DNA from: a virus
Strand: one strand, 5' to 3'
Length of the DNA stretch: 64,000 bases
IMG/VR virus record: IMGVR_UViG_3300020202_000072
Span: 1 to 64,000 of that record
Shown: one piece after another, positions 50 to 59,486 of the stretch
How the letters are laid out: each line of letters opens with the position of its first letter
Numbering within the stretch: the first letter of the stretch is position 1
Position numbers and translations under genes: made by a program
The notes under the pieces: model-generated
Seen by the model: only the letters and a program-made list of their open reading frames with translations
Told to the model about the DNA's origin: nothing
The model's database searches: none

Positions 50-1765
50 ATGCCGATCCGAGACCGCATCAAAGAGATTAGAACCGTCAAGGGCAAGGAC
101 TTACATCCGAACCCCCGTAACTGGCGGACCCACCCGGAAGGGCAGGCGGACGCCATGCGGGGCCTGTTGACCGAAGTCGGGCAAGTCGACATCCTCCGGG
201 CCGTCGAAACCGAGGGCGGATTGATCCTCATCGACGGCCACTTGCGGAGCGAGTTGGCCCCGGACGCCGACTGGAAGGTCGCGATCCTGGACCTCACGCC
301 GGAAGAGCAGAAGCTGGTGCTCGCTACGTTCGACCCGGTCGGGGCCATGGCCGAGACGGACCGGGCCAAGCTCGACACGCTCCTCGCCGAAATCGAAGCC
401 GAGTCTAAGGAAGTGACGGCGTTGCTCGAATCGATGGGCGAGGACGAGCCGGAAGCGGACAAGCCCGCCGAACCTCTGGACCTGTCCCCCACCTACGGCG
501 TGCTGATCCACGTCCCGGACGAGGCCTCCCAGAAGCAACTCCTGCGAACGGCCGACGACGCCGGCTTCGAGGCCACGGCCGTGCTCACCGGCATGGTCGA
601 CACGCCGAAGCACAGCGAGCCCCCGCCGCCGGTACCGGAGGGGACCACCGTCATCGAAAGGATCTCGAAGGTCAACCGGTCCGTCCGCGTCCGCCAGGTC
701 GAGGGCATGTTCGACCTGCCGAAGTCCGGCAAGCAGGTCCGCCGCTGGGAGCTCCAGCTCGACTTGCCGAAGGAGTGGCACGTCGGCCTGATCGTCGGCC
801 CGTCCGGGTCGGGCAAGTCGACGCTGGCCCGCGAGTGGTTCGGCGCCGCGATGGTCGACCGCTGGGATTGGCCTGAGAGCGGGGCCGTCGTCGACGGCTT
901 CCCGGAGGCGATGCCGATCGCCGAGGTGACTTCGCTGCTGTCGTCGGTCGGTTTCTCCAGCCCTCCCGGCTGGGTCAAGCCTTTCCACGTGCTCAGCAAC
1001 GGCGAGCAGTTCCGCGTGAACCTGGCCCGGGCCCTCGCCGAGCAGCTGGCCCTGGCGGTGATCGACGAGTTCACGTCGGTGGTCGACCGCACCGTGGCGA
1101 AGGTCGGGAGCCACGCCGCGCAGAAGGCGGTGCGGGCGAGCGGCCGCCGGCTCGTCGCGGTGACCTGCCATTACGACGTGACCGAGTGGCTGCAGCCGGA
1201 CTGGATCCTCGACATGCAAACCGGCGACTTCGCCCGGAGGTCACTTCAACAACGCCCAGCAATACAAGTCGTTGTTCGACGGGTTGGAAGGGAGTGCTGG
1301 CCGGCGTTCCGCGAGCATCACTATCTGAGCCACTCGCACAGCAAGCAGGCGACGTGCTTCCTGGCCGAGGTCGAGGGCCGGCCGGCCGCGTTTTGTTCCG
1401 TCATCCACCAGCAGGGCAAGCACGGGACGTTCCGCACGCACCGCCTGGTCACCCTGCCGGACTTCCAGGGGATCGGGGTAGGGCACGCGCTTCACGAGTT
1501 CGTTGCCGGGATGTTCGCCTGCCGGAAGACGTACACCCTGACGTCGAGTCACCCGGCGATGATCGCCCACTGCGCGCGGTCGAAGTTGTGGGAGTGTCGG
1601 CTGCGGCGGTTCGGGAAGCCGTACCGGGCTGAGGGGACCCGGGCCACGGCGAGCAGCGCGGGGCGGATGACCACGACGTTCCGCTACGTGGGGCCGAGGT
1701 TAGAAGAGCAGGCCGCCCGGTTCGGCGTGATTCAGTCCTCTACTGAGGTGGATCAGGATTCTTAA
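50..1765 (+). CDS. ParB-like / ABC-ATPase / GNAT three-domain fusion protein
   Basis: This 571-residue protein joins three domains. Residues about 1-110 resemble the ParB/Spo0J nuclease-like fold (IDGHLR motif near residue 63). The middle is an ABC-type ATPase with a Walker A loop GPSGSGKST near residue 250, a signature-like LSNGEQ, Walker B LAVIDE and an H-loop-like CHYD. The last about 150 residues look like a GNAT acyltransferase with the acetyl-CoA motif QGIGVG. I chose the ATG at 50 because GGGAG lies 10 bases upstream; an in-frame GTG at 11 has nothing comparable. The gene overlaps the opposing AbiTii gene by 26 bases at its 3' end. GNAT-fold enzymes such as Mu Mom modify phage DNA bases, so DNA modification is an inference, not something the sequence proves. 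Confidence 0.85.
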   Translation: MPIRDRIKEIRTVKGKDLHPNPRNWRTHPEGQADAMRGLLTEVGQVDILRAVETEGGLILIDGHLRSELAPDADWKVAILDLTPEEQKLVLATFDPVGAMAETDRAKLDTLLAEIEAESKEVTALLESMGEDEPEADKPAEPLDLSPTYGVLIHVPDEASQKQLLRTADDAGFEATAVLTGMVDTPKHSEPPPPVPEGTTVIERISKVNRSVRVRQVEGMFDLPKSGKQVRRWELQLDLPKEWHVGLIVGPSGSGKSTLAREWFGAAMVDRWDWPESGAVVDGFPEAMPIAEVTSLLSSVGFSSPPGWVKPFHVLSNGEQFRVNLARALAEQLALAVIDEFTSVVDRTVAKVGSHAAQKAVRASGRRLVAVTCHYDVTEWLQPDWILDMQTGDFARRSLQQRPAIQVVVRRVGRECWPAFREHHYLSHSHSKQATCFLAEVEGRPAAFCSVIHQQGKHGTFRTHRLVTLPDFQGIGVGHALHEFVAGMFACRKTYTLTSSHPAMIAHCARSKLWECRLRRFGKPYRAEGTRATASSAGRMTTTFRYVGPRLEEQAARFGVIQSSTEVDQDS

Positions 1766-2684
1766 GGTGAAGGATTTCACCTAGGAAGAGGTACGTGTTG
1801 AGGAACAACGCTCTTGCCTCTTCCGCGGTGCCGTCGTTATGCACGGCATGTGACACGCGTCCATAGAGTGCTTCCAGATTCCGACGTATTCGTTGCCTTC
1901 GACTCGTGCTCGTAACTCGCTCTTGCACGAAGGCATTGATTCTGTTCTGGTGCTTGGACGCGTCCAGAGAGACTGTATTCCCACCCATCTCAATGGTCTG
2001 GTCTGTCGGTGGGTAAATCGAATCGGCAAAACTATCGATGATACGACGACAGGTTGTGAGGGCCTGAGATATCGATTCCGTGTCACCGTCTACAAGCCTG
2101 TCCATCACGAGCGGAATTTTTTCCAGCACGTCTCCGCAGTGCTCACCAATCAGGGCGTCAACGTCAGCCTTGTACCTCTCGAAGATGGACTCCGCCAGGC
2201 CTTCGAACGCTTTCTTGTAGTACACTTCCGCTGCAAAGGTGTGGAGTCGAGCGAGCACGCGACTCTTGATGCCGCTGAGTGCGGCGATGTAATTGGCTGA
2301 CGCGGTCATTGCCTCAGTAACACTTCGGACTGCGAGTAGCGCGACATTGCTACTAGAATCAGGCGTCCGCAGACTGGAGAGCTTCGCCTTCTCTGCCAGG
2401 ATCGCGGCTTCGATTTGTGCTAGAGGGCCCCAATGCCCCAACTTCTTCTCGACGTTGGTCCATCGTCCTGTGATGCCCATGTACTTAACGGAGTATGGGG
2501 CGTCGCTGTAGTAACCACTCATTTCGAGTTTTAGCCAACCCCTGATCTCATCCGAACCTATCCATCGGGCAAGTCTCGAACCTTTGAGAATCAGGGATTC
2601 GGGGGCTGCCCTGCTCAGCTCGATGTCGTCGAGCAGTTCCTTGGCGAGCTCAAGGACGTGCCTGGATCGACTCTGGTCTGACAT
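1740..2684 (-). CDS. AbiTii-domain protein, candidate abortive-infection factor
   Basis: The N-terminal about 110 of 314 residues match the AbiTii domain pattern: a helix with LLDDIELS, then LILKGSRLARWIGSDEI and a GYY turn. The rest is mostly helical, with no enzymatic motif I can name. AbiTii domains are known from abortive-infection-type phage defence proteins; the activity of this one is unknown. The gene is visibly poorer in GC than its neighbours and converges on the ParB fusion gene, which suggests a separately acquired cargo gene. It lies downstream of the ASCH gene on the same strand with only 43 bases between them, so it may have its own weak promoter or be read from the leftward operon. 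Confidence 0.75.
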   Translation of the reverse strand: MSDQSRSRHVLELAKELLDDIELSRAAPESLILKGSRLARWIGSDEIRGWLKLEMSGYYSDAPYSVKYMGITGRWTNVEKKLGHWGPLAQIEAAILAEKAKLSSLRTPDSSSNVALLAVRSVTEAMTASANYIAALSGIKSRVLARLHTFAAEVYYKKAFEGLAESIFERYKADVDALIGEHCGDVLEKIPLVMDRLVDGDTESISQALTTCRRIIDSFADSIYPPTDQTIEMGGNTVSLDASKHQNRINAFVQERVTSTSRRQRIRRNLEALYGRVSHAVHNDGTAEEARALFLNTYLFLGEILHLKNPDPPQ

Positions 2685-2727: not shown

Positions 2728-3120
2728 TTAGGAAGGATTGGGGCGTGAACCGGGTTCGGGCACCCAGGTTGGGTCAGGCACCTCGAAGAAACCGAGCTGC
2801 CCCTTCCAGGGCACCGGCTCCAGGGCGACCGGGTTCGCCAGGATCCAACACCAGTGCCCGGGGATGGCGAACGCGTCGCCGGCGACCTGGTCGTAAGGGA
2901 CGCAGTCGACGAGCTCCACCCGGCCGATGACAGCGCCAAAGTCGAGCCCGGCCGGGACGTCGGTCCCGTCAGGCAGTTTCGGCACAAGTTGCCGCCGGTT
3001 GAGTCCGGCGTGGATCAAAAGCGGACCGCGGTACGAAGTCGGCCGCGAGCGATTCTCGATGCGCTTCAGGCCCGCCACGATCGCCCAGGCCCACGGCTGC
3101 TGCACGCTCAACGCCTTCAT
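2728..3120 (-). CDS. ASCH-domain protein
   Basis: The 130-residue product begins MKALSVQQPWAWAIVAGLK and continues to IENRSRPTSYRGPLLIHAG, the hallmark start of ASCH-domain proteins (a PUA-like beta-barrel thought to bind RNA or modified nucleosides; some members are amidohydrolases acting on N4-acetylcytidine). A later GAVIGRVELVDC strand and a C-terminal GFFEVPDP fit the fold. It is the last gene of the leftward group before the AbiTii gene. A second, larger ASCH protein is encoded at 44732-45301, so the phage carries two paralogues. Its substrate cannot be told from the sequence. Confidence 0.8.
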   Translation of the reverse strand: MKALSVQQPWAWAIVAGLKRIENRSRPTSYRGPLLIHAGLNRRQLVPKLPDGTDVPAGLDFGAVIGRVELVDCVPYDQVAGDAFAIPGHWCWILANPVALEPVPWKGQLGFFEVPDPTWVPEPGSRPNPS

Positions 3121-38744: not shown

Positions 38745-40022
38745 TCATTTCTTACCCAAACGCTCCCCCAGCTTCTCCACCTCCGCCGCCAACTCGTCGA
38801 GCCCCAGCTTCGCGTAGTGCTTCATCAGCGTCGTCGGACTCGACAGCCTGGCCAGCCGCGTCGCGTGCGCGAGCGGGATCCCGGCCAGGAGCATCGACGT
38901 CTGGTAGTGCGTCCGCAGCGCGTGGAAGTCCAGCCGCTTGCCGTTCAGTTCGATCGGGACCTTCGCGTCCTCGAGGTCCGCGTAGAACGCGGTCGACGCG
39001 TAGCCCCACTTCGCCCACCCGCCCTTGTTCCACATCTGGTCCCCGGCCGGCTTCGTCTTGAGGTAGCCGAGCAGCCGCCGGGCGATCTTCGACGGGATGT
39101 ACACCGGCAGCTCGCGGCGGTTCTTCTGGTCCTTCGCCGGCAGCAGGATCCGCAGTTGCTTCCCGTGCTTGACGAACGACTCCGGCACCAGCTCAGCGAG
39201 CTCGCCCAGGCGGAGGCCGGTGAAGGCGGCGGTGAGGTAGCAGTAGGCACGGTCCGGGCCCGACAGGTTGCGGCGAACGGCCGTGCTCTTCTCCGTGGTG
39301 TTGATCAGCGACCAGAGTTCCTTGTCCGTCAGCGCCCGCCGCTCGAACGCCCGGGCGGAATCCGCGTTCAACTTCTCCAGGCGAGTTAGCGGGTTCTTCT
39401 CCAGGTGGTTGCGGTCGACCAGCCAGCCGCAGAAGGAGCGGATCGCCACCAGGTAGTGGTTCGAGGTCTGGGCACTTGAGCCGGTGACCTGGCCGCGGAA
39501 GTTCTCGCCACGCTCCCGGAGCTCCGCCAGCCAGTCTTCGACCGCCGAGGCGGAGATCGCCTTCGGCGTCAGGGCGCCGATCCCGGCCATGATCTTCCGC
39601 ACGCGGCTGACCGTCTGCCGCACGTGCTTGTCGGTCGGCGCCTTCGACCGCAGGTGCTTGTCCCAGGCGTCGATCAGCTCGGCCATGCTCTTCGGCGTCG
39701 AGGGCGAGGGGACCGGGATGCCCGCGGCCTCTCGCTCCAGCCTGGTCAGGATCTGCAGCCGCTTCTGCTCGCTTGCCGTCTTGTCGCGGAAACAGCGCTC
39801 GACCTTCACCTCTCCCAGGTGGTTACGGGTCTCGCACGCCCAGTAGTCCACCTCGACCGTGCAGCGCTTCCCGTCGTCCGACAGCGGGGCCGTTACTTCC
39901 CTGCCGCCCCGCTGCGTCCACCGGGCGAACTTCACGCGGTCGATCGTCACGATCTTGGCCCCGGCCGGCACGGGTTGCGTGTAGCGGGGACGGAACAGCC
40001 TGGCATAAATTCGGTCCAGCAT
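38745..40022 (-). CDS. int: Tyrosine integrase
   Basis: The 425-residue product has an N-terminal arm-binding-like region, a SAM-like core-binding domain (SMAELIDAWDKHLRSKAPTD), and a catalytic domain with Arg in AFTGLRLGELAEL (near residue 271), Lys in LPAKDQKNRRELP, HxxR in FHALRTHY (near 369) and the Tyr in LMKHYAKLGL (near 402). It points toward attP at 36330-36387, its likely substrate. It is preceded in the same leftward operon by two small regulators. Confidence 0.92.
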   Translation of the reverse strand: MLDRIYARLFRPRYTQPVPAGAKIVTIDRVKFARWTQRGGREVTAPLSDDGKRCTVEVDYWACETRNHLGEVKVERCFRDKTASEQKRLQILTRLEREAAGIPVPSPSTPKSMAELIDAWDKHLRSKAPTDKHVRQTVSRVRKIMAGIGALTPKAISASAVEDWLAELRERGENFRGQVTGSSAQTSNHYLVAIRSFCGWLVDRNHLEKNPLTRLEKLNADSARAFERRALTDKELWSLINTTEKSTAVRRNLSGPDRAYCYLTAAFTGLRLGELAELVPESFVKHGKQLRILLPAKDQKNRRELPVYIPSKIARRLLGYLKTKPAGDQMWNKGGWAKWGYASTAFYADLEDAKVPIELNGKRLDFHALRTHYQTSMLLAGIPLAHATRLARLSSPTTLMKHYAKLGLDELAAEVEKLGERLGKK

Positions 40023-44613: not shown

Positions 44614-44735
44614 ACCCAGACCGACCCTCCGTCCGCAGCAACCTTGCCGTCGGCGTCATCGCCGCGGTGCTCTGGTCCGTCGTGTTCGCGTCCGGGAAGG
44701 CCCTCTGGTTCTTTGTGTTCGGAGTCATGCCGTGA
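44610..44735 (+). CDS. Tiny single-span membrane protein
   Basis: The 41-residue product begins MNPDRPSVRSN and continues as one membrane helix (LAVGVIAAVLWSVVFASG) with an aromatic end. ATGA and GTGA overlaps on either side support its translation. No family is recognised. Confidence 0.5.
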   Translation: MNPDRPSVRSNLAVGVIAAVLWSVVFASGKALWFFVFGVMP

Positions 44736-45301
44736 AGTGTCTGTCGCTCTGGAACCCGTGGGCCATGCTCCTCGTCGCCGGCCTGAAGCGCGTCGAGACG
44801 CGGAGCTGGGCCATGCGTCACCGCGGGCCACTCCTGATCCAAGCGAGCAAGACTTGGAACCCCGACCTGGCCACGCTCTGCGTCGACTCGTCGAAGCCGT
44901 TCCGCCTGGCGGTCGAGTCGATGGGCTACCCGATCGCGGGCACTGTGGCCGAGGCCAAACGAGGCTGGGGACTGCCGTTCGGGGCGATCGTCGGCTGCGT
45001 GCGGGTGACCGACTGCTTCCGAACCGGCGTCGTATCCGTCGCGGCGAGCAACCCGGCCGTCCCCTACGTGACGACCTGGGCGAACACGGGCGGGGTGGAC
45101 AACCGATCGTTGCGGATCAGCGAGCAAGAGCAGGCCTTCGGCGACTACAGCCCCGGCCGCTTCGCCTTCCTGTGTGAGTCGCCCGTCCGCTTCGACCGGC
45201 CGATCCCGTACCGCGGGGCACAAGGGCTGTTCGAGGTTCCTGATGAGGTGATTCGGGGGCTTGTCGTGCTGAACGAGATGCAAACGAGCGAGGGCCGGTG
45301 A
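44732..45301 (+). CDS. ASCH-domain protein, second copy
   Basis: The 189-residue product begins MKCLSLWNPWAMLLVAGLKR and has VETRSWAMRHRGPLLIQAS, the ASCH opening also seen at 2728-3120, with a long insert around residues 45-80 and FGAIVGCVRVTDCF. It ends PYRGAQGLFEVPDEV. Start and end overlap neighbours by four bases. The two ASCH proteins share the opening motif but differ in length. Confidence 0.8.
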   Translation: MKCLSLWNPWAMLLVAGLKRVETRSWAMRHRGPLLIQASKTWNPDLATLCVDSSKPFRLAVESMGYPIAGTVAEAKRGWGLPFGAIVGCVRVTDCFRTGVVSVAASNPAVPYVTTWANTGGVDNRSLRISEQEQAFGDYSPGRFAFLCESPVRFDRPIPYRGAQGLFEVPDEVIRGLVVLNEMQTSEGR

Positions 45302-46128
45302 TGCCGACCATGCGCATTAGCGCCATCAAGATCGGGCCGCGATTCCGAGTTGAACTCGGCGACCTGTCCGCACTCGCCGCCAGCATCAAGGCCATCGGCC
45401 TCCTGCATGAAGTCATCGTGACGGGGCAGGGAGACCTCGTGTGCGGCCGTCGTCGCGTCGAGGCGTGTCGGTCACTCGGCTGGAAGGACATCCCGTGCAG
45501 GGTCGTTGACATCGATCACCTGATTGCGGAGCGCGACGAGAACGAGTGTCGCAAGGACTTCACCGTCTCGGAGCGGGTTGCAATCGCGAAGGCGATTGAG
45601 GAGAGGGAGAAGCCCGAGGCGGCAAAGCGGAAGCAATCAACTCAAACCAAAGGCGGCGATAGGGCCGGCGCTCCGAAGCTCGGTTCCGAAAAATTTACGG
45701 AACCGAGCGAATCAGACGCCGACGAGTACGAGCGATACAAGCAGAGGCGAGACGAGATTCAGCAGCGACAGTCGCAGACCACGCCGCTCCCAAAGCGGGG
45801 TGAGGCTGCGGACATCGCCGCCCGCGCCGCTGGTTTCTCTCGCCCGACCTACGAGAAGGCGAAGGAAGTCGTCGAGGCTGCGAAGGAGGAGCCTGAGAAG
45901 TTCGCCGACCTCAAAGAGCAGATGGACCTGACCGGCAAGGTCGACCCGGCCCACAAGGAAATGGAAAGGCGGAAGGCCGGCGCGGAACCGCAAGAGCGGC
46001 CCTACGACGTGATGGATGACGTCGCCAAGATCACAGCCTTCATCGAACGGCTGCGCAAGAACTGGACTAAGGACGAGCACAAGACCGTCATACAGCACTG
46101 TCTCCGACAACTGGCAAAGGACATTTGA
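45298..46128 (+). CDS. ParB/Spo0J-like nuclease-domain protein
   Basis: The product has 276 residues from GTG 45298 (an ATG at 45301 is in frame). It carries IKIGPRFRVELGDLSALAAS, a GDLVCGRRRVEACRSLGW motif near residue 46 and VDIDHLIAERDENECRKDFT, the ParB N-terminal fold, then a helix-turn-helix-like region and a charged helical C-terminus. It is followed two bases later by a GHKL ATPase gene. It may bind or nick DNA; it lacks an obvious partition ATPase partner. Confidence 0.82.
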   Translation: MMPTMRISAIKIGPRFRVELGDLSALAASIKAIGLLHEVIVTGQGDLVCGRRRVEACRSLGWKDIPCRVVDIDHLIAERDENECRKDFTVSERVAIAKAIEEREKPEAAKRKQSTQTKGGDRAGAPKLGSEKFTEPSESDADEYERYKQRRDEIQQRQSQTTPLPKRGEAADIAARAAGFSRPTYEKAKEVVEAAKEEPEKFADLKEQMDLTGKVDPAHKEMERRKAGAEPQERPYDVMDDVAKITAFIERLRKNWTKDEHKTVIQHCLRQLAKDI

Positions 46129-46129
46129 G

Positions 46130-47515
46130 ATGGTCAACATCACACCGACGACGAGCGTCATTGAGGCTATGCGGAAGCAGTACCTTCAATGGCACATCAT
46201 CCTTGGAGAGTTCATCGACAACGCCTTCGACGCAGGAGCGACGCGCGTCTCGATTGAGTTCGACAAGAACCAGCTCAAGATCACCGACGACGGGTCGGGA
46301 TGTAAAGACCTGGTCCTTATGCTGAAGCCCGGCGCACGCGAGAGTAAGACGACGACGATCCTGGGCAGGTACGGCATCGGGGCCAAGGACGCCGCGATCT
46401 CCGCGGCCGATGCCATCGCGATCAACTCCATTCACAAGGGCAAGCAGCGATTCATTCAGTGCGACTGGCGGCGTGTCGAGCGGAGCGGCATTTGGGAGAT
46501 CGACGACCCTGTCGAGACCGAAACCGACAAGGCCAGCGGGACAACCATTTCGCTGATGCAGTTGCGAAGCGACCGGCTTAAGAAGCCGGACCAGCTCGTC
46601 GAGCGACTGAGCTTTCAGTACACGCCCGCGATTAAGCAGGGCCGCCAGATCATCTTGAAGACCAGTAAGCAGGCGGCCGCGATCCCCATTCCTGAGTTCC
46701 TGATTCCAGTCCTGGAGCACCAGAAGGAAGCGGACATAGACCTTGGCGACAAAGTTGCCCGCGTGGTGATGGGCCTCATCCCCGAGGGGAGCAAGTTCCA
46801 AGAGCGAGGCCTGATGATCTCCTACGGCTACCGTGTGGTCAGTAAGGGGCAGACCATTGGGCTCGGATCGGAGCCGACGCCGGGCTTGTTCGGGCGAATC
46901 GAACTCGGCAAGGGCTGGGACCTCACGAAGAACAAGGACAAGGTCGACTCGGACGTCGAAGCGCTTGCCGACGAAATCTACCGCGTCTTCCGCGACGTGA
47001 TTGACCGCGCGTCGAAGCGGTCGCAAGCCGTCCACTTCGGCAGTGTGACGAAAGAGATCAACCAGATTCTGAAGGAGTTCACGCAGGGCGACGACACCGC
47101 CAAGGCCAAGCGTGGTTCCAAGCGAGCCGAGTCGGGTTCAATCCTGCCGCGAAATACGGACCGAAAGCATAGGCAGGCCGCCCGTACTCAGCCCGGAGAC
47201 TCCTTTCGCGCACCCAACGGCGCGTCTCGCGGATTGTCGATCTCCTTTGAGCATCTTGGCGAGAGCGGCCCTGCCTGTCGTTGCGACGGCAATGCCATTT
47301 ATTTGAACGTGGACATACCTGCAATCAAGGTGGATTCGAGCGACCCACGGGCGCTATCAAGGCATGCCATCTATGCCGCCTCGACCTACTTCGCCATCGC
47401 ACAACCTGAGCTGTTTCCAGACTTTGAAGGATCGTTTGCGAAGGCCGTTCACTGCGCTGGGCACCTGCTGTCCCGCTTGAACCAGCCGGGCATCGCCCTG
47501 GCAAACGTCGGATAG
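46130..47515 (+). CDS. GHKL (HSP90/MutL/MORC-like) ATPase
   Basis: The 461-residue product has the GHKL ATP-binding motifs: LGEFIDNAFDAGATRVSIEF (N box, near residue 25), ITDDGSGC (G1 box), and GRYGIGAKDAAISAA (G2-like). The rest is an extended alpha/beta region with a conserved TPGLFGRIELGKGWDLTKN block like GHKL transducer domains, and a variable C-terminus. Prokaryotic GHKL/MORC proteins occur beside restriction or DNA-modification genes. The tight coupling to the ParB-like gene suggests a joint complex. Confidence 0.82.
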   Translation: MVNITPTTSVIEAMRKQYLQWHIILGEFIDNAFDAGATRVSIEFDKNQLKITDDGSGCKDLVLMLKPGARESKTTTILGRYGIGAKDAAISAADAIAINSIHKGKQRFIQCDWRRVERSGIWEIDDPVETETDKASGTTISLMQLRSDRLKKPDQLVERLSFQYTPAIKQGRQIILKTSKQAAAIPIPEFLIPVLEHQKEADIDLGDKVARVVMGLIPEGSKFQERGLMISYGYRVVSKGQTIGLGSEPTPGLFGRIELGKGWDLTKNKDKVDSDVEALADEIYRVFRDVIDRASKRSQAVHFGSVTKEINQILKEFTQGDDTAKAKRGSKRAESGSILPRNTDRKHRQAARTQPGDSFRAPNGASRGLSISFEHLGESGPACRCDGNAIYLNVDIPAIKVDSSDPRALSRHAIYAASTYFAIAQPELFPDFEGSFAKAVHCAGHLLSRLNQPGIALANVG

Positions 47516-50948: not shown

Positions 50949-51203
50949 ATGAGCCAGGCGGCAAAGCACGTGTGCGACGAGGCGATGGAACAACTCCGGG
51001 CCGTCGAGCGGCACCTGGCGGTCTTGCGGAAGGACTGCGGCCAGATCGCCTACTGGGGCAAGGGGCCGTCGGACCTGGACCGCGACGCCTGCCGCGTCGT
51101 CGAAGCGGGCTGTTACTCGATGCTGAGCACGCTCCGCCAATGGGAGTCGCTCCTGGCGGGCGTCGCGGTTTCACTGAGCAAGGAACAGGAGAGCCCAAAG
51201 TGA
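50949..51203 (+). CDS. Small helical hypothetical protein
   Basis: The 84-residue product is helical (HVCDEAMEQLRAVERHLAVL; VVEAGCYSMLSTLRQWESLL). It follows a 133-base gap that contains a GGGTGC/GCACCC hairpin (50884-50904). Its stop overlaps the methylase start. No family is recognised. Confidence 0.55.
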   Translation: MSQAAKHVCDEAMEQLRAVERHLAVLRKDCGQIAYWGKGPSDLDRDACRVVEAGCYSMLSTLRQWESLLAGVAVSLSKEQESPK

Positions 51204-53173
51204 TTGACGGAGAGATCATCGTCGACAGCTTCGCCGGCGGCGGCGGGGCATCGCTCGGCATCAAGCGTGCGCTCGGCCGCGGGCCGGACGTGGCGATCAA
51301 CCACGACGCGGCCGCGATTGCGATGCACGCAGCCAACCACCCGGAGACCGTCCACTTCACGGAAGACGTGTGGAAGGTCAGCCCCCGGAAGGTCACTCGC
51401 GGCCGTCGCGTCGGCCTGTTGTGGGCCTCGCCCGACTGCAAGCACTTCTCGCGGGCGAAGGGCTCGAAGCCCGTCGAGAAGAACATCCGCTCGCTCGCCT
51501 GGGTGGTTGTCCGCTGGGCCGAGCAGTGCGAGCCGCGGGTGATCGTCCTGGAAAACGTCCGGGAGTTCGAGGAGTGGGGCCCGCTCCTGCCGCTCTGGAC
51601 CTGCAGCGCCTGCGGCTGGAAGGGGACCGAGGGCCAGGCGACGCTCGTCCGCCACTCCCGCCGCCGCTGCCCACGGTGCGAGTCGAAGGGCATCCGCCAG
51701 ACCGAACACCAGGTCCCCGACCCCGCCCGCAAGGGCCTGACCTTCCGGCGATTCGTCGGCCGGTTGAAGAACCTTGGCTACCAGGTGCAGTGGAAGGTGC
51801 TGAACGCCGCGGACTTCGGGGCCCCGACCCACCGACGCCGGCTGTTCCTGATCGCCCGCAACGACGGTGCGGAGATCTGCTGGCCGGAGCCCACGCACGG
51901 CGACCCGAAGAAGATCGCGGCGAGCGAGACGGACCTGTTCCCCTCGGCGCTCAAGCCGTGGCGGACGGCGGCTGAGATCATCGATTGGTCGATCCCGTGC
52001 CCGTCGATCTTCGAGCGGAAGCGGCCGCTGAAGCCGAACACGCTGCGGCGGATTGCGATGGGCATCAAGCGGTACGTGCTGGACAACCCGCGGCCGTTCA
52101 TCGTCCGGCTGGCCAACACCGGCGACGACGCCAGCCGGTCTCACACGCTGGACGAGCCACTCCGCACGATTCACGGTGGAGGGGGGAGCCATGCGGTCGT
52201 TGCCCCGATCCTCGCCCACGCGACCCACCAGGGCGAACGCCGCTCGCACACGCCCGACGAGCCGCTGCCGACCGTGACCGGGGCCAACCGCGGCGAGATT
52301 GCTGTCGTCGCCCCTTACCTCGTTCGCGGCTGTCAGACGGGCGGGAACGGGAAGTACACGAACGGGACGGACGAGCCGCTCACGTCGGTGGTCAGCAAGG
52401 CGGAGCACATGCTCATCGCCCCGACCCTGATCCAGACCGGTTACGGCGAGCGGCCGGACTACTTCACGCACGTCTGCGAGACGGAGGCAGGAGACATAGT
52501 CCGCGAATCGACGTCCGGGCGCCGCTGCAAAGTCTGCGGCGTCAAGCCGACGAAGAGGGAAGGCCAGGCCCCCCGCACGCTGAACATCGAGGCCCCGATG
52601 GGCACCGTCGTCGCCGGCGGGTGCAAGCAGGCCCTGGTAGCCGCCTTCATCGCCAAGCATTACGGCGGATGGGAAAACCGGAGCGGCGTTCCAGCAGACG
52701 TGCCGCTGCCAACCACGACGGCCAGCGGCGGCCAGAACCAGCTTGTCGCCGCCAACCTGATCCACCTGAACAACAACACGCGGCCGACGTGCCCAGGCTC
52801 GCCGCTCCACACGGTCACCGGCGGGGGCAACCACGCGGCCCTGGTCTACAGCTTCCTGACTAAATACTTCGGCCGGGCCGTCGGCCAGGTCCTCGACGAG
52901 CCGCTGCACACCGTCACGAGCAAAGACCACTTCGGCGTTATCACGGTCACCGTTGACGGCGAGCCCTACGTCATCGCCGACATCGGCATGCGGATGCTCA
53001 CTCCCCGCGAGCTCGCGAAGGGGCAGGGCTTCGACGACGACTACATCCTCACCGGATCGAACACGAGCCAGGTCGCCCGGATCGGCAACAGTGTGGCCCC
53101 GGACGTGGCCGAGGCGATCGTGCGGGCGAACTGTGGAGCGGAAGTTGAGACCTACTCAGGAGCTTCCCGATGA
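51200..53173 (+). CDS. C5-cytosine DNA methyltransferase with repeat-rich target region
   Basis: The 657-residue product starts at GTG (GTGA overlap). It has motif I DSFAGGGGASLGI, a motif IV variant SPDCKHFSRAKGSKP, motif VI VIVLENVREF, motif VIII RRRLFLIA and a C-terminal motif X-like ARIGNSVAPDVAEAIV. A zinc ribbon (CSACGWKG ... CPRC) lies near residue 130. Between motifs VIII and IX there are about seven repeats of the form DEPLxTVT ... LVAPxL, a feature known from phage cytosine methylases. It methylates phage DNA, probably against host restriction; the target is unknown. Confidence 0.88.
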   Translation: MIDGEIIVDSFAGGGGASLGIKRALGRGPDVAINHDAAAIAMHAANHPETVHFTEDVWKVSPRKVTRGRRVGLLWASPDCKHFSRAKGSKPVEKNIRSLAWVVVRWAEQCEPRVIVLENVREFEEWGPLLPLWTCSACGWKGTEGQATLVRHSRRRCPRCESKGIRQTEHQVPDPARKGLTFRRFVGRLKNLGYQVQWKVLNAADFGAPTHRRRLFLIARNDGAEICWPEPTHGDPKKIAASETDLFPSALKPWRTAAEIIDWSIPCPSIFERKRPLKPNTLRRIAMGIKRYVLDNPRPFIVRLANTGDDASRSHTLDEPLRTIHGGGGSHAVVAPILAHATHQGERRSHTPDEPLPTVTGANRGEIAVVAPYLVRGCQTGGNGKYTNGTDEPLTSVVSKAEHMLIAPTLIQTGYGERPDYFTHVCETEAGDIVRESTSGRRCKVCGVKPTKREGQAPRTLNIEAPMGTVVAGGCKQALVAAFIAKHYGGWENRSGVPADVPLPTTTASGGQNQLVAANLIHLNNNTRPTCPGSPLHTVTGGGNHAALVYSFLTKYFGRAVGQVLDEPLHTVTSKDHFGVITVTVDGEPYVIADIGMRMLTPRELAKGQGFDDDYILTGSNTSQVARIGNSVAPDVAEAIVRANCGAEVETYSGASR

Positions 53174-53745
53174 ACAGCCCCGTCTTCGGCTGCTACCGGA
53201 ACACCATCCGCGTCCGCTCCGGCGGCTACTTCGACATCGCCGACCCCCGGCCCGGCCAGTTCACCTTCGCGGACGTGGCCGGTGCCCTGTCCAAGATCTG
53301 CCGCTTCGGCGGGCAGATCGACCGGTTCTACTCCGTGGCCGAACACCTCTGGCACTGTGCGGAGCAGGCGGCCCGCGACGGCCTCTCGGGCGAGGCCCAG
53401 CGGGCGGTGCTCTTGCACGACGCGGCGGAGGCATTCATCGGCGACGTGGTGAAGCCGTTGAAAGTGATGCTGCCGGAGTACGCGGCGATCGAGCAGAAGG
53501 TCGAGGACTGCATCGCACTCAAGTTCGGCGTCAGCTTCCGGCTGTGGCAGGAGGAGATTCGGAAGGTCGACCGCGAGCTCTTGATCGCCGAGCGTCACGG
53601 ACTGTTCACCGCCGACGACGTGAAGTGGACGGGCGAGGACGAAGTGAGGCGGCTGAAGATCGACTTCTACCGGTGGAGCCCGCCGGTCGCGGAGGAGTTC
53701 TTCACGAATGCGGCCCGGAACCTTGGCATCGACGTGAAGCGGTGA
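53170..53745 (+). CDS. HD-domain phosphohydrolase
   Basis: The 191-residue product has the HD signature: YSVAEHLWHC, AVLLHDAAEAFIGDVV with HD near residue 78, and VDRELLIAE. It resembles YfbR-type nucleotidase/phosphohydrolases that act on deoxynucleotides. It overlaps the methylase by four bases. It may trim the nucleotide pool during phage DNA synthesis. Confidence 0.82.
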   Translation: MNSPVFGCYRNTIRVRSGGYFDIADPRPGQFTFADVAGALSKICRFGGQIDRFYSVAEHLWHCAEQAARDGLSGEAQRAVLLHDAAEAFIGDVVKPLKVMLPEYAAIEQKVEDCIALKFGVSFRLWQEEIRKVDRELLIAERHGLFTADDVKWTGEDEVRRLKIDFYRWSPPVAEEFFTNAARNLGIDVKR

Positions 53746-53909
53746 GGTTTCCCTACTTCTTCGCCTGGAAGCGCGGCCCCGTCTGGTCCGGCCTCTACCG
53801 CCGGCCCTGCCGGGTGATCGCGAGGGGAAGCCTCAATAGTGCCCTGGTGGAGTTCGAGGACGGGCGGAAGTTCATCATCAGTCGGAACGCGTTGCGGAGG
53901 CGGAAGTGA
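53742..53909 (+). CDS. Small basic hypothetical protein
   Basis: The 55-residue product starts on a GTGA overlap and has RFPYFFAWKRGPVWSGLYRR, then SALVEFEDGRKFIISRNALR, a small beta barrel type. Both ends overlap neighbours. No family is recognised. Confidence 0.55.
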   Translation: MRFPYFFAWKRGPVWSGLYRRPCRVIARGSLNSALVEFEDGRKFIISRNALRRRK

Positions 53910-54049
53910 TGGGCGACGAACCTTGTATGTGCGGCCACGCTCCCGAGGAGCACGGCGGCGACCCGAAGCATCCCGGCTCGACTGCTTGTACCGCGGAAGG
54001 CTGTCCCTGCATTTGCTACGAGGCGGACGAAGTCGACGAGGAGGACTGA
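53909..54049 (+). CDS. Small cysteine-rich zinc-binding-type protein
   Basis: The 46-residue product contains eight cysteines and histidines in CMCGHAPEEHGG and CTAEGCPCICYE and an acidic end. It likely binds one or two zinc ions. It starts on a TGATG overlap. Confidence 0.6.
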   Translation: MGDEPCMCGHAPEEHGGDPKHPGSTACTAEGCPCICYEADEVDEED

Positions 54050-54052
54050 CCA

Positions 54053-54187
54053 GTGAGCCCATCCGACCAGGCCTACGAACGCATCACGACGGAGATCGCC
54101 CGCGAGTGCGAGCGGCTGTCGCCGGCGGAGCGGACCGCGTTGTTGCGGTCGCTGGAGGAGTGGGTCGTCAACGAGCTGGGGGAGTGA
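54053..54187 (+). CDS. Small helical protein
   Basis: The 44-residue product is one or two helices (DQAYERITTEIARECERLSP; ERTALLRSLEEWVVNEL). It starts at GTG three bases after the previous stop. No family is recognised. Confidence 0.45.
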   Translation: MSPSDQAYERITTEIARECERLSPAERTALLRSLEEWVVNELGE

Positions 54188-54189
54188 CC

Positions 54190-54486
54190 ATGCAAGCCCC
54201 GATCGGCCTGCCGGCCTACGAGCTCCGCGTGAAGGACCTCGACCCGAAGCATCACGACGAGCCCTACGGCCTGTTCGTGGGCGTCGCCGGGTCCGGCCAG
54301 GTCTGCCAGTTCGCGGCCGGCTCCCGGTCGGATATGCGTGACTTGCGGCAGGCGATCTTGAAGGCGATTCGGTCGAACCGGGAGCCGCTCGAGGCGTTGG
54401 CGAGTGCGCTCGCCAAGGTTGCCCGTGATGTGCAGGCGGGGCAGGGGGCCGAAGTTCAACTGACCGAAGAGGTGAGTCGTGGCTGA
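54190..54486 (+). CDS. Hypothetical early protein
   Basis: The 98-residue product has a beta N-terminus (PYGLFVGVAGSGQVCQFAAG) and a helical C-terminus (REPLEALASALAKVARDVQA). It overlaps the DUF5131 gene by eight bases. No family is recognised. Confidence 0.55.
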   Translation: MQAPIGLPAYELRVKDLDPKHHDEPYGLFVGVAGSGQVCQFAAGSRSDMRDLRQAILKAIRSNREPLEALASALAKVARDVQAGQGAEVQLTEEVSRG

Positions 54487-55594
54487 GAACAGCAAGATCG
54501 AGTGGTGCCACCACACTTTCAATCATGTGCGTGGGTGCACGAAGGTTTCGGCCGGTTGCGCCAACTGCTACGCGGAGTCGATGAGCGGGAGGAATCCAAA
54601 GACTCTCGGCGTGTGGGGGCCGAACGGTACGCGAGTCGTCGCGGCCGAAGCGGCTTGGCGCGAGCCGTTGAGGTGGAACAAGGTGGCAAAGTTGGCCGCA
54701 GAACTATACGCGGCGGTCGGCGGAGATCCCTCGCGGCCGGGACGAGTCGAGTGGCAGGGCAGGACGGTCCGCTTCGACGGCCGACCTCGCGTGTTCTGCG
54801 CGTCGATGGCCGACGTGTTCGAGGACTGGACCGGGCTGATGGAGGCGGCAGATGGTGACGTGCTCCACGTCTGTAACGAGTGCGGTGAGTGGCGAACGAT
54901 GGCGAAGATGTGTCACGGACCGCTCGCCCACATGCCCCTCACCATGCAGGACGTTCGCGCCCGCCTCTTCCGTCTGATCGACCAGACGCCGAACCTCGAC
55001 TGGCTGCTGCTGACGAAGCGGCCGGAGAACATCGAGCGGATGATGCCGCCCTACCGGGACACGCACTGCGACCACAAGCGGTACTCGTGCGCAGACGTGG
55101 GTTGCCGGGGCGGGGTCCGCCCAAACGTCTGGCTCGGCGCCAGCGTCGAGAACCGGAAAGCTGCGGAACGCATCAAGGTTCTTCGCGGCATCCCCGCCGC
55201 CGTCCGCTTCCTGAGCGTCGAACCTCTTCTCGAGGACCTAGGCACGATTGACCTGACCGGCATCGACTGGGTAATCGTCGGCGGCGAGAGCGGCCACGGG
55301 GCGCGGCCGATGCACCCCGACTGGGCCCGCTCCCTTCGCGACCAGTGCCGGGCCGCCAATGTGGCGTTCTTCTTCAAGCAATGGGGTGAGTACGCACCGC
55401 GAGACGCCGGCGGCTTCTTCTCTGTCAGCGACAAGACGAACCACACGATCGACGAGCTAGGACGCCTCGACACAAAACACGGCGGTGGCCAGCTCGTTCA
55501 GGTCGGCCGCGTCGGCAAGAAAGCCGCCGGCCGGCTCCTCGACGGCCGCGAGTGGAGCGAGTTTCCGGCACAGGCTGCGGAGCCCGCAACGTGA
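54479..55594 (+). CDS. DUF5131 (phage Gp37/Gp68) radical-SAM-like protein
   Basis: The 371-residue product begins MAENSKIEWCHHTFNHVRGC, then TKVSAGCANCYAE, the three-cysteine iron-sulfur motif of Gp37/Gp68 proteins. It continues with PNLDWLLLTKRPENIERMMP, NVWLGASVENRKAAERI, VRFLSVEPLLEDLG and WVIVGGESGHGARPMH. The fold is radical-SAM related; the reaction and substrate are unknown. It sits next to a DndC-like enzyme gene, so a joint nucleic-acid modification pathway is possible. Confidence 0.85.
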   Translation: MAENSKIEWCHHTFNHVRGCTKVSAGCANCYAESMSGRNPKTLGVWGPNGTRVVAAEAAWREPLRWNKVAKLAAELYAAVGGDPSRPGRVEWQGRTVRFDGRPRVFCASMADVFEDWTGLMEAADGDVLHVCNECGEWRTMAKMCHGPLAHMPLTMQDVRARLFRLIDQTPNLDWLLLTKRPENIERMMPPYRDTHCDHKRYSCADVGCRGGVRPNVWLGASVENRKAAERIKVLRGIPAAVRFLSVEPLLEDLGTIDLTGIDWVIVGGESGHGARPMHPDWARSLRDQCRAANVAFFFKQWGEYAPRDAGGFFSVSDKTNHTIDELGRLDTKHGGGQLVQVGRVGKKAAGRLLDGREWSEFPAQAAEPAT

Positions 55595-55809
55595 AGACCC
55601 TGAACCATCCCCGCCGCGCCGTCCGCCCCCACGACGCGCTCAACGACCTGGACGACCGGTGTGCCTGGTGCAACCGGCGGCTCCCGCACGGGGCGCTTTG
55701 CAGCCGCGGCAAGGACCCGGTCAAGGGTCGGACGGTGTACGTGTGCGATAAGTGCCTGACGCCGCCGGCGATGGGCCATTACCCGGTTGAACTGACGGTG
55801 GAGGATTGA
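55591..55809 (+). CDS. Small zinc-ribbon protein
   Basis: The 72-residue product carries CAWCNRRLPHGALC and VYVCDKCLTP, a treble-type zinc site. It starts on a GTGA overlap with the DUF5131 gene and ends four bases before the PP-loop gene, so it may be an accessory of either. Confidence 0.6.
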   Translation: MKTLNHPRRAVRPHDALNDLDDRCAWCNRRLPHGALCSRGKDPVKGRTVYVCDKCLTPPAMGHYPVELTVED

Positions 55810-55813
55810 AGCG

Positions 55814-57022
55814 GTGAGTACCTTGTTCGACGCACACCGGCTGACACTCGAAGAGTCGATCGACCTCACGGCCGCGACTCTTTGCGACTACGGTACGCGC
55901 TACGACGTGTGGGTCTTCGCCTGGTCAGGCGGAAAGGACTCGACGACCTGCCTCACGCTCGCGCTCCACCTGATCGAAAGCGGCCGCGTCCCGGCCCCGA
56001 AGAAGATCATCGTCCTGTACGCCGACACCCGGCAGGAGATCCTTCCGCTGTGGTTCTGTGCCTCGCACATTCGCGAAGCCCTGGCCGATCGTGACATCGA
56101 GTCCCGCGTCGTCATGGCCCCGCTCGACAAGCGGATGTGGGTCTACATCCTTGGTCGCGGCGTGCCCCCGCCGAACAACAACACGCTCCGGTATTGCACC
56201 CGGCAGATCAAGATCGAGCCGATGGCACGGCACGTCGAGGACCTGGCCCGCGAGCACAACTGCAAGGTGCTGGTTCTCACCGGCGTCCGTCTCGGCGAGT
56301 CCGCGGCACGCGACAACCGGATCGCTCTCGCCTGCACCACGAACGGGGCGGAGTGCGGACAGGGCCATTTCCACCAGTCGCTCGAGGGCGCGCTCGCCGA
56401 CACGCTGGCCCCGATCGTCCACTGGCGAGTCTGCCACGTCTGGGCCTGGCTGAACAACTACGCCCCGGATTATCGCTTCGGCGAGTGGCCGACGCGGACG
56501 CTGGCCGAGGCCTACGGAGGGCAGGGCGGGAACGAAGAGCAGGAGATCAACGCCCGCACGGGCTGCGTCTGTTGTCCACTGGCCGCCCGCGACACGGCCC
56601 TCGACGCCGTGATCGCGAATCCACGCTGGGCCTACCTAGAACCGCTGAAGCGGATCCGCGACCTGTATGAGTGGCTGCGGGTCCCGGCCCAGAGGCTTCG
56701 GAAGGCCGGAGGGGAGCGCCGCAAGGACGGGAAGCTCGCGAGCAATCAGCAGCGGATGGGACCGCTGACGTTCAGCGCACGCAGCGAAGGACTGCACCGA
56801 CTCCTGAGCATCCAGGAGGAAGTGAACGCCGAAGCCCGGCGGCTCGGCCGCCCGGCCGTGGATCACCTGAACCACGAAGAGACGGCCCGCGTTCTGGAGC
56901 TGATCGCGAACCGCACCTGGCCGGACGGGTGGGACGGGACCGAGCCGACGGCCGACACGATGCTGCCCACGCACTACGGAGACGGATCGGTGATGAACCT
57001 GTTGTTTGGAGAGCCGGAATGA
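55814..57022 (+). CDS. DndC/PAPS-reductase-like PP-loop enzyme
   Basis: The 402-residue product has the PP-loop FAWSGGKDSTTCLTLALH near residue 37, NNTLRYCTRQIKIEPM near residue 118, LTGVRLGESAARDNRI, and GCVCCPLAARD near residue 253, which is the DndC/SspD-like combination of PP-loop and iron-sulfur-type cysteines. DndC activates the backbone for sulfur insertion in DNA phosphorothioation; phage homologues have mostly unknown roles. No DndD, DndE or cysteine desulfurase is visible here. It overlaps the HerA-like gene (ATGA). Confidence 0.82.
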   Translation: MSTLFDAHRLTLEESIDLTAATLCDYGTRYDVWVFAWSGGKDSTTCLTLALHLIESGRVPAPKKIIVLYADTRQEILPLWFCASHIREALADRDIESRVVMAPLDKRMWVYILGRGVPPPNNNTLRYCTRQIKIEPMARHVEDLAREHNCKVLVLTGVRLGESAARDNRIALACTTNGAECGQGHFHQSLEGALADTLAPIVHWRVCHVWAWLNNYAPDYRFGEWPTRTLAEAYGGQGGNEEQEINARTGCVCCPLAARDTALDAVIANPRWAYLEPLKRIRDLYEWLRVPAQRLRKAGGERRKDGKLASNQQRMGPLTFSARSEGLHRLLSIQEEVNAEARRLGRPAVDHLNHEETARVLELIANRTWPDGWDGTEPTADTMLPTHYGDGSVMNLLFGEPE

Positions 57023-58662
57023 GCTTCTTTCTCCCACAAGCGGCGGTCGACCAGCACGTCGCCATTCTCGGCAAGACCGGGAGCGGCAAGACATCGACGG
57101 GCAAGTTGCTCGTCGAGCACGTCGTCGCCAGCGGTGCCCGCGTCTGCGTCCTGGACCCGATCAAGTCCGACTGGTGGGGTCTCATCTCCAGCGCCGACGG
57201 GAGGCGGGCGGGCTTGCCCTTCGACATCCTCGGCGGGCCACGCGGCCACGTCCCCCTGCACTCGGCGTCAGGCAGGGCCATCGGCGAGATCGTGGCCACG
57301 GGCCAGCTCCCGCTGTCGATCATTGACATGGCGGACTTCGAACCCGGCGGGCAGGCCAAGTTCTTCGTCGACTTCGCGCCGGCCCTGCTCCGCAAGATGC
57401 GCGGCGTGGTCTACGTGGTCATCGAAGAGGCCCACTTGTTCGCCCCGAAAGAACGCTCCGGCATCGGCGCGGAGAACATGTCGATCCATTGGGCGAAGAC
57501 TCTCGCGACGGCCGGCCGATCCAAAGGCCTTCGCTTCATCATTCTTACCCAGCGAACCCAGGCGTTGCACAACGCCGTCCTCGGCAGTTGTGACACCCTT
57601 ATCGCCCACCGACTCACCGCGCCGGCCGATCAACTGCCCGTCCTGAAATGGCTCCAGGCCAACGTCAGCCCGGAGGTGGCGAAGGAGATTTCGGGCTCGC
57701 TGGCCTCTCTTCAGAAGGGCGAAGCGTGGATCTGCTCTGGCGAGGCCCAGCTCTTCGAGCGACGGCAGTTCGGTCGGATCAAGACTTACGACAATACGGC
57801 GACGCCAACGGGCGACGGCAACGCCCACGAGGTCAAGTCGGCCCCGATCAATCAGGACAAGTTGCGATCGATCATCGGCGAGGCCGTGAAGGAGGCCGAG
57901 GCGAACGACCCAAAGCTACTCCGCCGCAAGATCGCCGAGTTGGAGCGGGCTCTCCGCGAGCGGCCGGCGGCCACGAAGGAGGTCGAGAGGCTCGTCGAGA
58001 CACCGGCGATTAGGGACGATCAAATCGACATGATGCGCGACGTGGCGGCATCCATCGCACGCTACTGCCAGACCGTGGTCGAGGTCGCCAATGGGCTGAA
58101 AGACGGCCTCGACCGCGTCGTCCAGTCGCGTCGAGCGGTCCCGGTTAGCAACCAAAGGCCAGCGGTTAGCAACAAACCGGCCCCGGCCAGCAGGCTATCA
58201 GCCCCTTCTAGCAGTCCAGCCGGCGGTCTCACCGGCCCCCAGCAAGCCATCCTCGACACCGTCCTCATGCTCAACACGCGGGGCATCCAGGCCAGCCGCG
58301 ACACCGTCGCCCGCTGGCTGGCGATCCACCCCAACGGCGGCAGTTACGGGACCAACCTCGGCTTCCTGCGATCCAACGGCTACCTCGAAGGCTTCCACCT
58401 GACGGAGCTCGGGCTCGCTACGGCCCGCATCTCCATCACCGGGCTCGAAGGCGCCCTCGCGGCCCTGCCCGACGAGCCGAAGCGGAAGATCGTCCGCACC
58501 GTCGTCGAGCACGGCCAGCCGCTGACCCGCGACGAGCTCGCCGAGAGGCTCGGCATCCACCCAAACGGGGGGAGCTACGGCACGAACCTCGGCTGGCTCC
58601 GGACCATGGGCATCATCACGGAACGCGGGCCGATTGCGGCCACGGAGGGCTTGTTCCGATGA
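57019..58662 (+). CDS. HerA/FtsK-type DUF87 ATPase with tandem winged-helix C-terminus
   Basis: The 547-residue product has Walker A ILGKTGSGKTSTGKLL near residue 18 and Walker B VVYVVIEEAHLFAP near residue 133, as in HerA-like pumping ATPases. Residues about 395-547 contain two similar winged-helix units, each with IHPNGGSYGTNLG followed by LRSNGY or LRTMGI. HerA-like ATPases work in DNA end processing and in Dnd/Dpt restriction. It overlaps the DndC-like and Dam-like genes on either side. Confidence 0.85.
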   Translation: MSFFLPQAAVDQHVAILGKTGSGKTSTGKLLVEHVVASGARVCVLDPIKSDWWGLISSADGRRAGLPFDILGGPRGHVPLHSASGRAIGEIVATGQLPLSIIDMADFEPGGQAKFFVDFAPALLRKMRGVVYVVIEEAHLFAPKERSGIGAENMSIHWAKTLATAGRSKGLRFIILTQRTQALHNAVLGSCDTLIAHRLTAPADQLPVLKWLQANVSPEVAKEISGSLASLQKGEAWICSGEAQLFERRQFGRIKTYDNTATPTGDGNAHEVKSAPINQDKLRSIIGEAVKEAEANDPKLLRRKIAELERALRERPAATKEVERLVETPAIRDDQIDMMRDVAASIARYCQTVVEVANGLKDGLDRVVQSRRAVPVSNQRPAVSNKPAPASRLSAPSSSPAGGLTGPQQAILDTVLMLNTRGIQASRDTVARWLAIHPNGGSYGTNLGFLRSNGYLEGFHLTELGLATARISITGLEGALAALPDEPKRKIVRTVVEHGQPLTRDELAERLGIHPNGGSYGTNLGWLRTMGIITERGPIAATEGLFR

Positions 58663-59486
58663 AAGTCACCGCCCTGGCCCCGTGGTTCGGCTCGAACCGA
58701 ATGCTCGCCGAGAACGTCGGCGCCGCCCTCGAAGGCTGCTCCTGGGTGGGCGTGCCGTTCGCCGGCGGGATGTGCGAGTTGGCCTACATCAAGGCCCGCA
58801 CGTTGATGGTCAACGATCTGCACGAACTGGTCATCAACCTGGCCAATGTCGTCGCCTGCCCGAAGCGAGGGCCGGCGCTAGTTCGTCGACTCCGCCGCGT
58901 GCCGTTCCACCCGTGGGCCCTGGAGGTCGCCCAGCGGTGCTGCGCAACCTACGGCCGCCCGCCGGCCGGCGACCCGGAAGCCGCGCTCAACTTCGCCGAG
59001 GCGTACTTCATCTGCGCCTGGATGGCCCGCAACGGCAAGGCCGGGACGAAGGACGAGTTCAAGGCCGGCATGTCGATCCGCTGGGAGGCGGGCGGTGGTG
59101 ATTCGGCGAAGCGCTTCCGGTCGGCGACCGAATCCCTGAGCGACTGGAGGAAGGTCCTCTCGCGGGCGACCTTTAGCACCGAGACGTTCAGCTTGTTCCT
59201 GAAGAAGTGCAAGGACGCCGACGGGCACGGCCTCTACTGCGACCCACCCTTTCCCGGTCCCGGGGACGCCTACTTCCACACCTTCGCCAACGGCGAGCAC
59301 GGGTTGCTGGCCCGCGCGCTCGCGGCCTACCAGAAGACGCGGGTGGTCTGCCGGTTCTACGACACGCCGCTCATCCGCGAGTTGTACCCGGAATCGCTCT
59401 GGCAATGGAACCACTTGAAGGGGCGCGACCAGGTCAACGCGGAGAAGGCCGAGGTCCTGCTGGTCCGGAATAGGGAGGTCGGTTGA
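58659..59486 (+). CDS. Dam-type (D12 class) adenine-N6 DNA methyltransferase
   Basis: The 275-residue product has an N-terminal LAPWFGSNRMLAENVGAAL, the SAM motif GVPFAGGMCELAYIK and the catalytic YCDPPFPGPGD (DPPF) near residue 195. This is the D12 order of motifs. It would methylate adenine in phage or host DNA, giving restriction protection or a regulatory mark. It starts on an ATGA overlap with the HerA-like gene. Confidence 0.82.
   Translation: MKVTALAPWFGSNRMLAENVGAALEGCSWVGVPFAGGMCELAYIKARTLMVNDLHELVINLANVVACPKRGPALVRRLRRVPFHPWALEVAQRCCATYGRPPAGDPEAALNFAEAYFICAWMARNGKAGTKDEFKAGMSIRWEAGGGDSAKRFRSATESLSDWRKVLSRATFSTETFSLFLKKCKDADGHGLYCDPPFPGPGDAYFHTFANGEHGLLARALAAYQKTRVVCRFYDTPLIRELYPESLWQWNHLKGRDQVNAEKAEVLLVRNREVG

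Follow-up and report, generated by a model that had tools for sequence, protein, structure and literature searches.

The window, a 64,000-nucleotide stretch of viral DNA (positions 1 to 64,000 of IMG/VR record IMGVR_UViG_3300020202_000072), carries at its start a gene that was read as one complete frame of 571 residues, with AGGGAG 9 bases upstream of the ATG. The gene lies at the start of the contig, and its neighbourhood was visible on the 3' side only. The encoded protein joins a ParB-like part, which carries a small tail domain, to an ABC ATPase domain and a GNAT domain; Table 1 collects the positions of these features.

Domains, motifs and conservation of the window protein

In the Pfam analysis, ABC_tran (PF00005) scored 36.6 bits against a cut-off of 25, and the GNAT models Acetyltransf_7 (PF13508) and Acetyltransf_1 (PF00583) scored 27.4 and 25.6 against cut-offs of 27 and 20.7, respectively. 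In PHROGs, residues 202-552 matched phrog_11143 (4e-99), residues 8-133 matched phrog_498, a family of ParB-containing DNA methyltransferases (1e-9), and the N-terminus matched the ParB-like phrog_620 (5.5e-6). The Pfam threshold of PF02195 was not attained by the N-terminal domain of the window protein; the partner ParB of phage Vinitor-27 scored 36.6 bits with this model. The P-motif of the ParB/Srx fold, G-x-x-R, is present as GHLR (63-66), and PMC12704722 describes a role of its Arg in nucleotide-phosphate binding. The whole ParB part comprises about 185 residues, with the ABC domain after it.

Table 1. Positions of the domains, motifs and genes discussed in the text (window numbering, unless a locus is named)
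Feature	Position	Strand	Evidence
Complete gene (571 aa) with ParB-like, small tail, ABC ATPase and GNAT domains	50..1765 (stop codon 1763-1765)	+	sequence
ParB/Srx-like N-terminal domain, residues 1-128	50..433	+	PHROGs; alignment with ParB proteins that relatives encode in a separate gene upstream
Predicted nucleotide-phosphate binding site: P-motif (Box II) IDGHLR with R66, residues 61-66	230..247	+	sequence
Putative docking element: small phrog_28816-like tail domain at the C-terminus of the ParB partner, residues ~147-182	488..595	+	
ABC ATPase domain, residues ~198-400	641..1249	+	PF00005; Foldseek matches to solved ABC ATPases
Walker A GPSGSGKS, residues 250-257	797..820	+	K256 100% in 177 loci
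ABC signature LSNGE, residues 315-319	992..1006	+	L315, S316, G318 100%
Walker B with catalytic glutamate, DE (339-340), residues 335-340	1052..1069	+	D339, E340 100%
H-loop H374, family motif CHYDVTEWL	1169..1171	+	100%
GNAT domain, residues ~404-550	1259..1699	+	PF13508, PF00583; AlphaFold2; VIA Z
HHY motif, residues 423-425, candidate active-site residues H424-Y425 (inferred catalytic role)	1316..1324	+	100% in 177 loci
Acyl-CoA pyrophosphate loop QGIGVG (Q-x-x-G-x-G), residues 473-478	1466..1483	+	sequence, conservation
AbiTii-family abortive-infection gene	1740..2684	-	PF18864, 7.8e-17
ASCH-like gene	2728..3120	-	
Integrase gene	38745..40022	-	phrog_1
Second ASCH-like gene, related to the first	44732..45301	+	
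Second ParB-like gene, then GHKL-type ATPase gene	45301..47515		PF02195; PF13589
Cluster: C5-cytosine methyltransferase, PAPS-reductase-like protein, HerA-like ATPase, Dam-like methyltransferase	51200..59486		phrog_12882 (PAPS-reductase-like)
-1 frame overlap of GNAT and ABC genes	L183:4567-5050; L180:5558-6046; L236, L179, L232, L233, L235		
ParB genes with partner-dependent tails	L220, L221, L219, L222, L229		

Structure models were made with AlphaFold2. The full-length model had a mean pLDDT of 83.6 and a pTM of 0.66, with uncertain relative placement of the domains and a pLDDT below 50 in region 129-147, and Foldseek matched it with solved ABC ATPases. The GNAT domain alone was modelled at a pLDDT of 89.9 and a pTM of 0.83, and its comparison with solved GNATs gave a top VIA Z of 14.4 (1y9k; rmsd 2.7, 130 aligned). 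The best structural matches among those listed were protein or small-molecule acetyltransferases (RimI, Ard1, Naa50, IAA). These results confirm the proposal of the first-pass annotation that ParB-like, ABC ATPase and GNAT domains are fused in a single frame, including its assignment of the GNAT fold to the C-terminal third.

The first search yielded 20 close relatives of the window protein, and further scans found at least 596 stretches in viral and at least 349 in genomic sequences; 80 per scan were retained. Because many of the genomes with relatives belong to Planctomycetota, the host of the phage is probably a member of this phylum. Over 177 loci, K256, L315, S316, G318, D339, E340 and H374 in the ATPase and H424, Y425, R465 and G474 in the GNAT domain were conserved at 100%, and Q473, G476 and G478 at 98%, 96% and 95%, respectively. 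The motifs that the first-pass annotation had pointed out (IDGHLR, the three ATPase motifs and QGIGVG) are all present. From the invariance of the ATPase residues and of the four GNAT residues, together with the 95-98% conservation in the acyl-CoA loop, we infer that the window ABC-GNAT very probably retains both ATPase activity and transferase activity of the acyl-CoA type.

Organisation of the ParB and ABC-GNAT genes

To describe the gene organisation, we used 142 distinct loci (at most 85% identical, with at least 650 bases of upstream sequence), nearly all of which had been retrieved by searches with the ABC-GNAT part alone, not with ParB. ParB was directly upstream of ABC-GNAT in 139 of the 142, and the small ParB tail domain in 138. 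The two genes overlap by a fixed distance in about 60 of the 177 loci, where the stop codon of ParB is found exactly 21 bases beyond the ABC-GNAT start. The ParB-plus-tail gene and the ABC-GNAT gene are therefore an almost obligate pair. The ParB genes of three loci (L174, L020 and L033) are divergent and were at first taken as absent, and ParB was not found upstream of ABC-GNAT in L017 and L018.

Fusion of ParB to ABC-GNAT occurs in only four loci, namely the window, L099, L023 and L128. The proteins of the window and L099 are sisters (support 0.998) with 53% identity over 567 residues, and the fusions in L023 and L128 fall in other clades, so that about three separate fusion events have taken place. 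An assembly error as the source of the fusion was rejected, since three relatives, the sister L099 among them, are fused as well. The fusion is the exception; in most relatives a ParB gene accompanies a separate ABC-GNAT gene, and some relatives have three genes. The description of the window protein as a "self-contained" machine accordingly fits only this rare fused version.

Phages of Lactococcus, Oenococcus and Streptococcus have one annotated gene each for ParB, ABC and GNAT, and these sets are upstream of the terminase genes where those are in view. In seven of eight records from these phages (two Oenococcus records being near-identical), the -1 frame within the end of the ABC gene encodes the N-terminus of GNAT with its invariant HYL, over an overlap of 103-106 bases. 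In this overlap, the identity was 67% in the -1 frame versus 52% in the ABC frame, and most changes affected third codon positions when read in the -1 frame. This better conservation of the -1 frame suggests that GNAT is joined to ABC in the Firmicutes phages by programmed frameshifting or by an unusual restart. No canonical slippery site common to all candidate records was established, and Javan420 has one more frame break.

The naming of these genes in public records hides the family: in L179, L180 and L232-L236, the ABC gene goes under the name of a transporter (iron siderophore or oligopeptide), and the gene for ParB under that of a DNA methylase. The record of Tenacibaculum phage pT24, named as a carrier of an ABC-GNAT system (PMC7824862), has an in-frame stop within the GNAT domain (L182:5661-5663). 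An ABC transporter ATPase joined by chance to other domains would agree with the annotation "ABC iron siderophore transporter" found in several phages, but none of the neighbours identified in the window is a permease, and both the fusion to GNAT and the pairing with ParB are conserved family-wide, which makes this explanation hardly credible.

Several other genes in the window were recorded. The AbiTii-family gene slightly overlaps the ParB-ABC-GNAT gene. Two ASCH-like genes are present, and about 20 loci likewise have an ASCH gene in the vicinity of ABC-GNAT. We considered whether the window ASCH is an N4-acylcytosine hydrolase of the YqfB type, whose catalytic residue is Thr24 (PMC6972931), and rejected this, because its motif GLKRIENR, placed by eye, has Glu at that position; the hint towards cytosine was dropped accordingly. 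The methyltransferase cluster at 51200-59486 may constitute another set of genes for modification or defence. The integrase gene indicates that the phage is probably temperate. No terminal repeat that would support circularity of the contig was found.

Exchange of ABC-GNAT with Mom-type genes and the contexts of related ParB genes

The Arthrobacter phages EastWest and LeeroyJ are collinear, with flanking proteins 32-83% identical and ParB N-domains 55% identical. The gene following ParB in the same slot is ABC-GNAT in EastWest and Mom-like in LeeroyJ (phrog_1384, 1e-65), where the small gp71 lies between ParB and the Mom-like gene. A third Arthrobacter phage, Sicarius2, has ParB-Mom in this slot. 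Similarly, in Porphyromonas phages a cluster downstream of the same tail genes terminates in Mom (phage014a) or in ABC-GNAT (phage006a), and in phage006a only a 42-residue tail domain stands where ParB would be.

Ten phages with a related ParB were then hand-picked from a spread list, and the next or fused gene was annotated. Mom follows in Sicarius2 and B2_17, a TGT/DpdA-like gene adjoins ParB in Sonali, Hilltopfarm and Prairie, and in Pam4 the ParB is fused to a protein of a DNA-methyltransferase family. Shrooms has ParB, a PAPS reductase, and then another ParB with a methyltransferase; ScarletRaider has a member of a nuclease family; and in Beans and MellowYellow an unknown gene follows. 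Beans keeps the Mom-type ParB tail and the accessory gene phrog_9461 with no Mom gene after them (L223:2423-3376), and is a natural negative control. In the literature, a ParB-domain gene has been described beside CmoX, experimentally shown to be a cytosine carboxymethyltransferase (PMC12783734), and another, proposed to be DpdB, beside DpdA (PMC6392294). From the Mom/ABC-GNAT exchange and the presence of ParB beside base-modifying enzymes, the genomic context of ABC-GNAT is DNA-base modification. The slot exchange and the common ParB partner show a shared context, not a shared chemistry.

The ParB tails differ with the partner. ABC-GNAT-paired ParBs had the small tail domain at their end in all five phages tested (E 1e-7 or better), and this domain is a stand-alone gene of 42 aa in a Porphyromonas phage. 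Mom-paired ParBs carry a cysteine-rich, CPNCGHTFE-like tail (LeeroyJ, Sicarius2, Bush, B2_17), and three TGT-linked ParBs terminate in other sequences; the ABC-GNAT tail model matched neither the Mom-linked nor these three TGT-linked ParBs. In this small sample, the differences suggest that the tail selects the partner enzyme as a docking code, with binding of the two as the presumed basis.

Two other functions can be judged from these contexts. Terminase, portal and capsid genes recur downstream of ABC-GNAT across the family, and in many relatives the pair is just upstream of the terminase and portal genes, as would suit a packaging or DNA-maturation factor in which a ParB/ABC complex marks or condenses concatemers by the terminase and GNAT controls the terminase. 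However, the EastWest pair sits near a sliding-clamp gene and the Porphyromonas pair after tail genes, so that the linkage to terminase is not obligatory, and we regard a packaging role as improbable. Alternatively, GNAT may acetylate a protein, such as an enzyme of restriction or defence or the RNA polymerase of the host, with ABC and ParB as guides to DNA-bound targets. The match of the GNAT model to RimI, Ard1 and Naa50 favours this, and there are precedents for a phage GNAT affecting a host protein (Rac and RNA polymerase, PMC7552054), but protein acetylation explains neither the exchange with Mom in one slot nor the same type of ParB before base-modifying enzymes, and is for these reasons unlikely.

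A probable role in acylation of phage DNA bases

TmcA/NAT10 combines a P-loop ATPase with a GNAT that acylates the amino group of a nucleobase; its ATPase is of the helicase type, its substrate is RNA, and it has no ParB. The ATPase of the window protein is not of this type, as its ABC motifs and structural matches indicate. Modification of tRNA or mRNA, either as TmcA-like N4-acetylcytidine formation or as acetylation of aminoacyl-tRNA like that by GNAT toxins, could draw on this coupling of ATPase and GNAT, on the tRNA targets of DpdA relatives and on the AtaT-type GNATs, which act on tRNA (PMC7595197). Against RNA as the substrate stand the ABC-type ATPase, the ParB context of DNA modification and the nearby terminase and portal genes, and we consider it quite unlikely.

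The window protein was also compared with other known systems. The ABC-GNAT family PHROG 11143 is homologous over the region given above and has the same motifs; it differs in that ParB is fused in the window protein, and its chemistry is a predicted one. Mu Mom (PF25680, phrog_1384, PDB 8bv8) is also a base modifier of the GNAT superfamily from a phage, occupies the same post-ParB slot in Arthrobacter phages and has an HY motif at a similar place, but it lacks an ABC domain and its ParB partners carry the CPNCGHTFE tail. Mom was absent from the Pfam matches of the window protein up to E 10. The hhalign comparison of Mu Mom alone with 13 GNAT domains, and that of four Mom-type proteins with 68 GNAT domains, were not significant (prob 0.2% and 0.4%, respectively); a local Mom alignment places HHYLS near HYS. 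A Mu Mom query in viral contigs retrieved close copies only, and 8bv8 was absent among the 50 fold matches listed for the GNAT model. Membership of the window GNAT in the Mom family, which was considered as a candidate, is therefore not detectable by sequence profile. The DpdA/DpdB system of 7-deazaguanine DNA modification likewise has a ParB-type partner beside the modifying enzyme (Sonali, Hilltopfarm; PMC6392294), but it exchanges the base instead of transferring an acyl group, and its ParB has another tail. Fusions of the ParB-CTPase fold to enzymes were described by Kaljevic et al. 2025 (PMC12704722), whose available text reports GTP binding by a ParB-acetyltransferase fusion and ATP binding by some fusions of ParB to methyltransferases, and does not mention an ABC domain in the same chain. 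The binding of these nucleotides is in favour of a nucleotide-dependent switch in the ParB part of the window protein.

As the same slot holds a known kind of base-modifying enzyme in one group of related phages, the window protein is probably a base-modification machine that adds a chemical group to the bases of the phage's own DNA. Specifically, we consider it fairly likely that the phage uses it to acylate DNA bases and so to protect the virion DNA from restriction, and that the partner usually encoded in the same operon is here part of the chain. Base acylation is supported by the invariant ATPase and GNAT motifs, the almost constant upstream ParB, the repeated independent fusions, the exchange with Mom and a published prediction; the resemblance of the GNAT fold to protein and small-molecule acetyltransferases and the non-significant Mom profile comparison speak against it. 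In such a mechanism, the ParB domain, loaded with a nucleotide via GHLR, would bring the complex to the phage DNA, and its tail would dock the ABC subunit. Two ABC domains would close on each other with ATP and would distort the DNA or flip a base, and GNAT would use an acyl-CoA to place a small acyl group on an exocyclic amine of the base, either N6 of adenine or N4 of cytosine. The modified virion DNA would then resist host restriction. The whole would act like Mu Mom or TmcA as a member of neither family. The nicking by the ParB-like part and the ATP-driven DNA clamp that the first-pass annotation had envisaged found no support, and its proposal of base modification, made with reference to Mom, gained comparative support without extending to a Mom relationship by sequence.

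That proposal is largely a published prediction already, since acylation of a DNA base by ABC-GNAT was predicted by Iyer et al. 2013, as cited in PMC7824862. The literature search found no measured modified nucleoside for any ABC-GNAT phage. Four observations are added here: that ABC-GNAT is almost always paired with ParB, that it exchanges with Mom, that the ParB tails differ by partner, and that a candidate frameshift is conserved. No earlier description of them was found in the searchable literature, whose coverage leaves out many journals. More tentatively, a single ParB-type adaptor with exchangeable tails may run several unrelated base modifiers (Mom, DpdA/TGT, methyltransferases and ABC-GNAT), the ABC part may power an acyl-CoA-dependent base acylation leading to an undescribed nucleoside, and -1 frameshifting may set the ratio of ABC to ABC-GNAT in Firmicutes phages; we hold this wider proposal to be possible at somewhat less than an even chance.

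Base acylation by ABC-GNAT and the adaptor role of ParB are both directly testable in isolated phages with laboratory hosts (EastWest, LeeroyJ, Sicarius2, Gordonia phage Ligma, Lactococcus phage P335). If these ideas are true, hundreds of viral proteins that often bear the annotation of transporter or unknown would belong to a DNA-base acylation system, and the little-understood phage ParB domain would be a general adaptor of DNA-modification enzymes. New modified bases of this kind would be relevant to restriction evasion and to tools for DNA chemistry.
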